From: Phycisphaerae bacterium
GTDB taxonomy: Bacteria; Planctomycetota; Phycisphaerae; UBA1845
Direction of reading: 5' to 3'
DNA: 64,000 nucleotides
Assembly (NCBI GenBank): GCA_028289375.1
Contig: JANQQK010000008.1
Location: 62,001-126,000 of the forward strand
Shown here: one piece after another, positions 49,936 through 53,031 of the stretch
How positions within the stretch are numbered: the first letter of the stretch is position 1
Layout of the letters: every line of letters begins with the position of its first letter
Made by a program: the position numbers and the translations under genes
The notes under the pieces: model-generated
Told to the model about the DNA's origin: nothing
What the model saw: the letters and a program-made list of their open reading frames with translations, nothing else
The model's database searches: none

Positions 49936-52900
49936 ATGACGATGGCCTCGGCGACAAAACGGGTCTACTTCTTTGGTAATGGCAAGGCGGAAGGTCGCGG
50001 CGATCAGAAGGCGCTGCTTGGCGGCAAGGGAGCCGGGTTGGCTGAGATGACCAACATCGGTCTGCCTGTTCCGGGTGGCTTTACCATCACAACCGAAACG
50101 TGCGAAGACTACTACCGGCATCATCATAAGTGGCCTGGCGGTTTCGAGGAGGAAATCGTCAAGAACCTGAAGAAGCTGGAGAAAGCGTGCAAGAAGAAAC
50201 TCGGTGACGCAAACGATCCGCTGCTGGTGTCGGTGCGTTCGGGTGCGGCGGTGTCGATGCCGGGCATGATGGAGACGATTCTCAACCTCGGTCTGAACGA
50301 TGTGAGTGTTGAGGGGCTGGCGAAAGTCAGTGGAAATCGGCGATTCGCGCTCGATGCGTATCGACGGCTGATCATGATGTACGGGGCGACCGCGAAAGGC
50401 GTTGATCGTCTGAAATTCGATCACGCATTCGATCAGGTCAAGGATGAGCGGACACGCGGGCGTCTTGGCATTGCCCCCGATGCGAAGGTGAACGATACCG
50501 ACGTCAATGAGGCCGAACTTGAGGACGTCGTTGAACGTTTCAAGCAGTTGTACGCCGACGAAGTGAACGAGCCGTTCCCGCAGGAACCGATGGAGCAGCT
50601 TCGCGGATCGATCAACGCGGTGTTCGAGAGTTGGAACGCCGAGAAGGCGGTCACCTATCGTCGCGTCGAGAAGATCACCGGCGTGCATGGAACGGGTGTC
50701 AACATCTGCCAAATGGTGTTCGGCAACATGGGGGACGACTCGGGGACGGGCGTCTGTTTCACACGAGACCCGAGCACGGGTGAGAACGAATTTTACGGCG
50801 AGTTCCTCATCAACGCACAGGGTGAGGACGTGGTGGCGGGTATTCGCACGCCGCTGAAGATCCACGAAATGTCGCATCGTCTGCCGACCGCATGGGATCA
50901 GTTGCTGGCGGTGCGGGCGATGCTTGAGCTGCACTACGGCGACATGCAGGATCTGGAGTTCACCGTGGAGCGTGGCAAGCTGTACATGCTGCAGTGTCGC
51001 ACGGGCAAGCGGTCGCCGGGGGCGGCGTTCCGCATTGCGGTGGAGCAGGCGACGCTGCCGCTGCTGACCGACGAGGAAACGAAGCGGCTGATGAAGGCGA
51101 AGTACCTGCCGGCCAAGTACGGCAAGCTGGCGACCAAGCCGGTGATCAGCAAGCGTCAGGCGGTGATGCGGATCAAGGCGAGCGACATCGAGAAGCTGTT
51201 CTCGCCGGTGATCGATCCGAGTGTTTCGGTTTCGGAGTTGGACGAGCGTCGGCTGGGGACCGGAATCAATGCGGTGCCCGGGGCGGCATCGGGGACGGTC
51301 GTGTTTCACGCTGCCGATGCCGAACGTTTGGCCGCGGAAAATCACCAGGTCATTCTTGTCCGCAACGAAACATCACCCGAAGACGTTGGCGGCATGCACG
51401 TTGCTGCTGGCATTCTAACGGCGACGGGCGGCAAGACGTCGCACGCTGCCGTCGTGGCACGTGGCTGGGGCAAATGCTGCATCGTGGGGTGTGATGCACT
51501 TCGGATCGACGAGTCGGCCAAAACGCTACGGGTCAACGGACATCAGTTCAACGAAGGCGATCCGATCACGCTGGATGGATCGACCGGACATGTTTACGAA
51601 GGCGAACTGCCGCTCGATCGGCCCGGTGCACCGAACGAATACGGCACGATTCTCGAGTGGGCCGATGAGATTCGCCGTTTGAAAGTGCGAACGAATGCAG
51701 ACACGCCGGCCGACGCTGCCAACGCGGTGAGCATGGGTGCGGAAGGCATCGGACTTTGCCGGACGGAGCACATGTTCTTCGATACCGAGGAGCGGCGTCT
51801 GGCGATGCAGGAGATGATTGTCGCGGACGACGTGGAGGCACGCGTACGGGCGCTCGACAAGTTGCAGCCGTTCCAGAAGCAGGATTTCTTCGGGATATTC
51901 GAGGCGATGAACGGCAAGCCGGTGACGATCCGTCTTGTCGACCCGCCGCTGCATGAGTTCCTGCCGCATGATGACGAGGGCATCGAGCGCTTGGCCAACT
52001 ACACGGGTCTGACGGTCGATCAGATTCGTGATCGGACGCGGCAATTGCACGAGTCGAATCCGATGCTGGGGCATCGTGGTTGCCGGTTGGCGATCACGTA
52101 TCCGGAGATTCTCGACATGCAGGTCAGCGCGATCATCGAGGCGGCGGTTCAGGCCGCGCGGGAAGGCGTGACCGTCCTGCCGGAGATCATGATTCCGCTG
52201 ACGATTGATCCGCGCGAGCTGCAGATTCTTGTTGAGCAGACGCGTGCGGTGGCGGACGCGATTCTCGATGATGCGGGCGTGAAGCTCGACTATATGGTCG
52301 GGACGATGGTCGAGACACCGCGTGCTGCGTTGCGTGGCGATGATATCGCGAGCGTGTGTCAGTTCATCAGCTTCGGCACCAACGACCTGACGCAGACGAC
52401 GATGGGCCTCTCGCGTGATGACGCGGGTCGTTTCCTGCCGGACTATGTCGACGAGGCCAAGCATGGCATCTTCAAGGAAGACCCGTTCAGCACGATTGAT
52501 GTTGGTGGTGTCGGGATGCTGGTCGACTGGGCGGCAAGCAAGGCGCGCGAGGTCGACAAGAAATTCAAGCTCGGCGTGTGCGGTGAGCATGGCGGCGACC
52601 CAGAGAGCGTGGACTTCTTCCACAACGTCGGGCTGGACTACGTGTCGTGCAGTCCGTTCCGTGTGCCTGTCGCACGGTTGGCTGCGGCACAAGCGGTGGT
52701 TCGCGAGAAGGACGTGCAGAAGACGGGTCGCAAATCGACAGCGTCCGCTTCGCGCGTCAAGAAGAACGGTGCCGCGAAGTCCGCGAAGAAAGCAACCGCC
52801 AAGAAGGCAACGAAGAAAAAAGCCAAAGCCAAGAAGGCGAGCAAGTCCAAGGCGGCCAAGTCCGCGAAGAAAAAGACCACCAAGAAGGCGAAGTCGGCCA

Positions 52901-53031
52901 AGAAGAAGACCGCCAAGAAAGCCAAGTCGAAAAAGGCGACGGCCAAGAAATCCAAGAAGAAGACTGCAAAGAATTCAAAGAAGACGACCGCCAAGAAGAA
53001 GGCCGGCAAGAAGAAGAAATCGCGACGCTAA
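49936..53031 (+). CDS. ppdK: Pyruvate phosphate dikinase with histone-H1-like C-terminal tail
   Basis: This encodes 1031 residues. It interconverts pyruvate, ATP and phosphate with phosphoenolpyruvate, AMP and diphosphate. The N-terminal ATP-grasp has KGAGLAEM and RSGAAVSMPGMMETILNLG. The swivelling domain carries the phosphorylated His503 in GGKTSHAAV. The C-terminal barrel has EGIGLCRTEHMF and catalytic Cys882 in VCGEHGG. The enzyme core ends near residue 928, the normal family length. The last 100 or so residues are almost only Lys, Ala, Ser and Thr in AKKxxAKK words, as in histone H1-like proteins such as chlamydial Hc1. The frame is continuous, so this is a genuine fusion. AGGA motifs lie before the start and a strong promoter lies upstream. 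Confidence 0.95.
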   Translation: MTMASATKRVYFFGNGKAEGRGDQKALLGGKGAGLAEMTNIGLPVPGGFTITTETCEDYYRHHHKWPGGFEEEIVKNLKKLEKACKKKLGDANDPLLVSVRSGAAVSMPGMMETILNLGLNDVSVEGLAKVSGNRRFALDAYRRLIMMYGATAKGVDRLKFDHAFDQVKDERTRGRLGIAPDAKVNDTDVNEAELEDVVERFKQLYADEVNEPFPQEPMEQLRGSINAVFESWNAEKAVTYRRVEKITGVHGTGVNICQMVFGNMGDDSGTGVCFTRDPSTGENEFYGEFLINAQGEDVVAGIRTPLKIHEMSHRLPTAWDQLLAVRAMLELHYGDMQDLEFTVERGKLYMLQCRTGKRSPGAAFRIAVEQATLPLLTDEETKRLMKAKYLPAKYGKLATKPVISKRQAVMRIKASDIEKLFSPVIDPSVSVSELDERRLGTGINAVPGAASGTVVFHAADAERLAAENHQVILVRNETSPEDVGGMHVAAGILTATGGKTSHAAVVARGWGKCCIVGCDALRIDESAKTLRVNGHQFNEGDPITLDGSTGHVYEGELPLDRPGAPNEYGTILEWADEIRRLKVRTNADTPADAANAVSMGAEGIGLCRTEHMFFDTEERRLAMQEMIVADDVEARVRALDKLQPFQKQDFFGIFEAMNGKPVTIRLVDPPLHEFLPHDDEGIERLANYTGLTVDQIRDRTRQLHESNPMLGHRGCRLAITYPEILDMQVSAIIEAAVQAAREGVTVLPEIMIPLTIDPRELQILVEQTRAVADAILDDAGVKLDYMVGTMVETPRAALRGDDIASVCQFISFGTNDLTQTTMGLSRDDAGRFLPDYVDEAKHGIFKEDPFSTIDVGGVGMLVDWAASKAREVDKKFKLGVCGEHGGDPESVDFFHNVGLDYVSCSPFRVPVARLAAAQAVVREKDVQKTGRKSTASASRVKKNGAAKSAKKATAKKATKKKAKAKKASKSKAAKSAKKKTTKKAKSAKKKTAKKAKSKKATAKKSKKKTAKNSKKTTAKKKAGKKKKSRR

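Follow-up and report, generated by a model that had tools for sequence, protein, structure and literature searches.

The window (the whole 64-kb stretch of DNA that was analysed) contains a gene for pyruvate phosphate dikinase (PPDK), a widespread enzyme of sugar metabolism, whose reading frame continues past the enzyme into a polycationic tail. The open frame runs uninterrupted from 49846 to a TAA stop ending at 53031 on the forward strand, and the ATG at 49936 is most likely its start. The features are:

49936..52698, forward strand: PPDK catalytic core (TIGR01828, Pfam domains, solved PPDKs, model pLDDT), comprising an ATP-grasp part, a phosphohistidine swivelling domain (GGKTSH) and a PEP/pyruvate barrel (CGEHGG)
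52720..53028, forward strand: polycationic C-terminal tail of 103 residues, predicted to be disordered (composition, pLDDT, conservation)
53029..53031, forward strand: TAA stop of the fused frame

Judged by its sequence, the core is an ordinary, complete PPDK, and PPi- and AMP-dependent activity is predicted for it. It passed the equivalog model TIGR01828 at 1241.4 bits (cut-off 843.45), with the alignment stopping at residue 951 of the 1061-residue frame, at about window position 52698; PF01326, PF00391 and PF02896 each scored above cut-off in the Pfam search. Solved PPDK structures, e.g., 5jvn and 1kbl, matched the core, which has all three of their domains. The catalytic histidine motif (T-S-H) is present, in GGKTSHAAVVARG, as is the C-terminal cysteine motif CGEHGG; in an alignment of 34 PPDKs, S502, H503 and C882-G887 were invariant and T501 nearly so. 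An AlphaFold model, built with an alignment of 34 full-length PPDKs, gave the core pLDDT values mostly between 80 and 97.

The 103 codons of the tail specify 47 Lys, 23 Ala, 12 Ser, 11 Thr, 4 Arg, 3 Gly, 2 Asn and 1 Val, with neither acidic residues (Asp or Glu) nor Pro. Over the six frames of the window, 126,579 stretches of 103 codons held a mean of 2.3 Lys (s.d. 2.0), and the richest stretch away from the tail held 20. TIGR01828 and this composition together confirmed the earlier note's description of a complete dikinase core followed by about 100 in-frame residues of Lys, Ala, Ser and Thr. Lysine codons were used in the same ratio in both parts (AAG:AAA of 37:10 in the tail and 37:10 in the core), as expected if the two are translated together. 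In the model, pLDDT fell below 50 at residue 933 (about 52732) and stayed there up to the last residue, 1031; the tail is thus predicted to be intrinsically disordered. Chlamydial Hc1 is a protein of Lys/Ala composition, and the proposed likeness to Hc1-type histone-like proteins held for composition; it did not extend to homology, as a Pfam and NCBIfam search of the tail matched no family. The tail shares Lys/Ala composition with Hc1 and the histone H1 C-terminal domain but, unlike them, is fused to an enzyme.

We looked for PPDK and its C-terminus in 60 genomes of the host's order (an order of Phycisphaerae, Planctomycetota), the host genome (G000) included. A PPDK match of this kind was present in 56 of them, the exceptions being G008, G022, G037 and G041; G027 has a second, truncated copy (C70), which the tail reading did not include. 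The earlier note had proposed looking for the tail in the dikinases of related genomes, and all 56 order PPDKs carried a basic C-terminal tail, extending 12-141 residues beyond the core. Net charge ranged from +4 to +69 (median +20.5, n = 56), reaching at least +10 in 45 of the tails and lying between +4 and +9 in the other 11; the shortest had as few as 12 residues and a charge of +4. Median charge varied by family, from +26.5 in f1 (34 genomes) to +8 in f8 (6 genomes). As the basic tail is common to every PPDK read in the order, we conclude that the fusion is real and not an artefact.

Two other accounts of the fusion were rejected. An assembly error, frameshift, chance or recent fusion was ruled out by the in-frame tails in 56/56 order PPDKs; the earlier note had said that relatives lacking the tail, with signs of a recent frameshift or assembly error, would undo its reading. 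Nor is the tail likely to be an independent gene, since an internal start is not conserved: in just 3 of the 56 do the first 25 tail codons include a start codon preceded, at the usual spacing, by a Shine-Dalgarno-like stretch. In the window itself, an in-frame GTG at 52714 is directly preceded by a purine-rich stretch.

Across the order the letters of the tail change fast and its composition is kept. The pooled tails (3450 residues) contained 30.0% K, 18.8% A, 11.6% R, 8.6% T, 8.3% S, 2.1% E and 0.5% D, i.e., 41.6% K+R against 2.6% D+E. The rapid change of letters, and of length from 12 to 141 residues, is what would be expected of neutral low-complexity drift, or of DNA slippage past an old stop codon; we nevertheless consider such an origin extremely unlikely, because positive charge was kept in every tail with so few acidic residues, while neutral extension should also have produced ends that are not basic, as well as losses. 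The codon usage of the tail, which matches that of the core and mixes codons for Lys, Ala, Thr and Ser, also argues against it.

Outside the order, tails with a charge of at least +10 were uncommon. Among the 43 best-scoring (not randomly drawn) loci from other orders of the class or phylum, 5 reached at least +10, 15 lay between +4 and +9, and 23 were lower. A named outgroup of 79 loci from many phyla, again the best-scoring ones and not a random draw, showed the typical PPDK condition, in which the chain ends soon after the core (a median of 4 residues past the reference point, with a charge of +1), compared with 109 residues past the same point in the window PPDK. Nine of these loci had charges of at least +5 and four of at least +10, the four being from Phycisphaerales UBA5793, two Bacteroidales and one Treponema; a further locus, L112, had been dropped from this set, leaving the 79, as it lies on the same contig as order member G057:C20 and has the same tail letters. 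The Treponema PPDK (isolate Lab288P1bin11; L172:2021-4870, forward strand) carries a 67-residue KKPAA-type tail with a charge of +21, apparently an independent gain. In each of two short loci, L091 and L123, a pair of PPDK C-termini was read, probably from tandem copies. Viral contigs, scanned with the tail and the C-terminal portion of PPDK, yielded no relative.

We built a quick tree from the C-terminal domains of 117 PPDKs, representing 34 of the 56 order genomes and every second named outgroup locus (40). It placed the order's enzymes in a 50-row group (SH-aLRT 98), in which 32 rows had long tails, 12 had short ones and 6 had none. Long tails were strongly clustered: the whole tree required 9 changes, where shuffling gave a mean of 30.2, and there were separate tail origins elsewhere at L127/L139 and L097. 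Of the 114 inner branches 45 were weak, and other orders contributed five rows with long tails, lying in or outside the 50-row group. None of the six tail-less rows of that group (L067, L068, L083, L085, L109 and L113) belongs to the order; it looks as though the tail travelled with the host, and the pattern fits a trait maintained by something in the host. The best explanation is selection on the tail for charge and flexibility, not for exact sequence.

To place the tail in the context of its own genome, we sampled 20 stretches (329,474 bases), which with the window made 393,474 bases and 307 crude non-overlapping ORFs. A C-terminal 50-mer with a net charge of at least +15 was found in one of the 307, PPDK itself. 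The tail used as a protein query against the genome matched only itself, probably because such sequence is down-weighted, and DNA patterns were used instead: KK[AT][AT]KK, a narrow pattern that may miss other basic tails, gave nine matches in five proteins over the whole genome, PPDK included. Among the remaining four is a DksA/TraR-type zinc-finger protein (L198:895-1833, reverse strand; G000:C89) whose N-terminal part, some 170 residues long, is Lys-rich and histone-like; proteins of this type act at RNA polymerase. A small protein (L197:1282-1686, forward strand; G000:C74) has a C-terminal part consisting nearly entirely of KKA repeats, and is possibly a histone-like protein. The third (L189:847-1536, forward strand; G000:C31) belongs to no Pfam family, has a Lys-rich C-terminal half and lies directly upstream of a peptidase-like gene, and in the last, an OmdA/DUF1801 protein, the Lys-rich stretch is a short linker.

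The tail could be a regulatory or physical add-on with no role at nucleic acid, affecting charge or solubility, sensing acetylation, or contacting a membrane or an acidic partner. The 11 order members with tails of only +4 to +9 suit this idea, as does a review of topoisomerase I (TopA) that speculates on probable acetylation of the enzyme's lysine repeats (PMC7398561). Still, we think it unlikely, for many members have charges between +20 and +69, which would seem to be more than solubility requires, and no sampled ORF besides PPDK has a comparable C-terminus.

The explanation we prefer, which we regard as evenly poised between right and wrong, is that the tail may tether the enzyme electrostatically, and regardless of sequence, to nucleic acid: nucleoid DNA, and possibly RNA too. 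A disordered polycationic tail would hold PPDK on nucleic acid by analogy with the Lys-rich tails of actinobacterial topoisomerase I, and a similar tether role has been proposed for the tails of AlgP and PhaF. We infer such binding, and the resulting localisation, from (i) the basic tails in 56/56 order PPDKs, (ii) the predicted disorder of the tail, (iii) the clustering of long tails on the PPDK tree, (iv) the rarity of such tails in the genome, and (v) the DksA/TraR-type identity of one of the four other pattern-matched proteins, although this companion is one protein in one genome. Counting against a tether, the short tails of some order members (down to 12 residues and +4) could hardly hold an enzyme strongly; moreover, unrelated PPDKs of Bacteroidales and Treponema also finish in short K-rich stretches, so that a more general role is possible.

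The lysine repeats of Streptomyces TopA stabilise the enzyme on DNA (PMC7398561); actinobacterial topoisomerase I is an enzyme held on DNA by a Lys-rich tail, but DNA is its substrate and is not a substrate of PPDK. A metabolic parallel is PykA of Bacillus subtilis, a glycolytic enzyme of the PEP/pyruvate step that likewise acts at DNA (PMC9009071, PMC10143966) and binds DnaE on primed DNA (PMC10143966). Unlike the tailed PPDK, it contacts DnaE through its catalytic domain, and the available portions of these papers describe no basic tail. AlgP and PhaF of Pseudomonas likewise have a long, disordered, Lys/Ala-rich C-terminus that has been compared to H1; AlgP is, however, a DNA-binding protein and not a metabolic enzyme, and its repeats are of KPAA type (PMC9239181), whereas the PPDK tail is free of Pro.

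Instead of the nucleoid, the tail might bind RNA or ribosomes, or drive condensates with RNA. Disordered tails rich in positive charge bind a wide range of nucleic acids, the tail sequence itself does not distinguish DNA from RNA, and tRNA charging is another source of PPi. The sole annotated nucleic-acid-linked companion in the genome, the DksA-like protein, is linked to transcription and points weakly the other way; on balance we regard an RNA or ribosome target as possible but rather unlikely.

Binding to polyphosphate, the alternative raised in the earlier note, would place PPDK on polyphosphate granules. It was a good first candidate, because the H1-like tail of AlgP acts on such granules, its KPAA repeats being required for granule spacing in Pseudomonas (PMC9239181), and histidine ammonia lyase of Trypanosoma cruzi binds polyphosphate electrostatically and has a Lys-rich C-terminus (PMC8561398); PPi is, in addition, part of PPDK chemistry. 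The genomes weakened this alternative. PPK1 was found in 5/60 order genomes and PPK2 scored over cut-off in 11/60, with neither in the host genome (PF02503, PF03976), and tails accompanied by a PPK were if anything less charged than the rest (median +12, n = 12, vs +24, n = 44; p = 0.02, confounded by family). With polyphosphate kinases missing from the host and most of its relatives, we consider a polyphosphate tether very unlikely.

Returning to the nucleic-acid tether, its proposed benefit would lie in pyrophosphate. A PPDK kept at the nucleoid would be a PPi-consuming, ATP-forming enzyme (PEP + AMP + PPi -> pyruvate + ATP + Pi) placed at the sites of PPi release by polymerases, in cells most of which appear to have no soluble pyrophosphatase of families I and II. 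Family I was not found in the host genome, nor in 45 of the 60 order genomes overall (the host included), and family II was absent from all 60; a membrane pyrophosphatase was present in 56/60. The lack of both soluble families in the host fits, but does not show, the use of nucleoid-made PPi by PPDK. PPDK could then be one of the main soluble consumers of PPi in these cells, and a position at the nucleoid could put it at the source.

We also compared tail charge between order members with family I pyrophosphatase (median +15, n = 15) and those without it (+23, n = 41). The difference was not significant (p = 0.07) and is confounded by family; hence the PPi step gains no comparative support of its own, and we dropped a link between tail charge and the absence of family I as support. 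That PPDK, tethered to the nucleoid by its histone-like tail, serves as a local sink for the PPi of DNA and RNA synthesis, converting PPi and AMP to ATP and tying replication and transcription to the supply of PEP, is thus a tentative proposal that we consider more doubtful than the tether itself and, on present evidence, rather unlikely to hold.

The core is known and its tail is what is novel. In the portions of the open-access literature that a search returned, we found no report of a tailed dikinase, in keeping with the earlier note, which knew of no characterised one, nor any of Lys tails in Planctomycetes. If it is a true tether, an order-wide histone-like tail on a central metabolic enzyme would connect PPi/PEP metabolism directly to the chromosome, through a part that can be separated genetically. 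Two questions thereby become testable: how bacteria without soluble pyrophosphatase clear the PPi released in nucleic-acid synthesis, and whether enzymes of central metabolism sit at the nucleoid. A longer PPDK chain is also seen in the solved structure 2x0s (913 residues), which we take to be the Trypanosoma brucei PPDK with a glycosome-targeting C-terminus; the C-terminus of that enzyme is a short targeting signal and is not polycationic.
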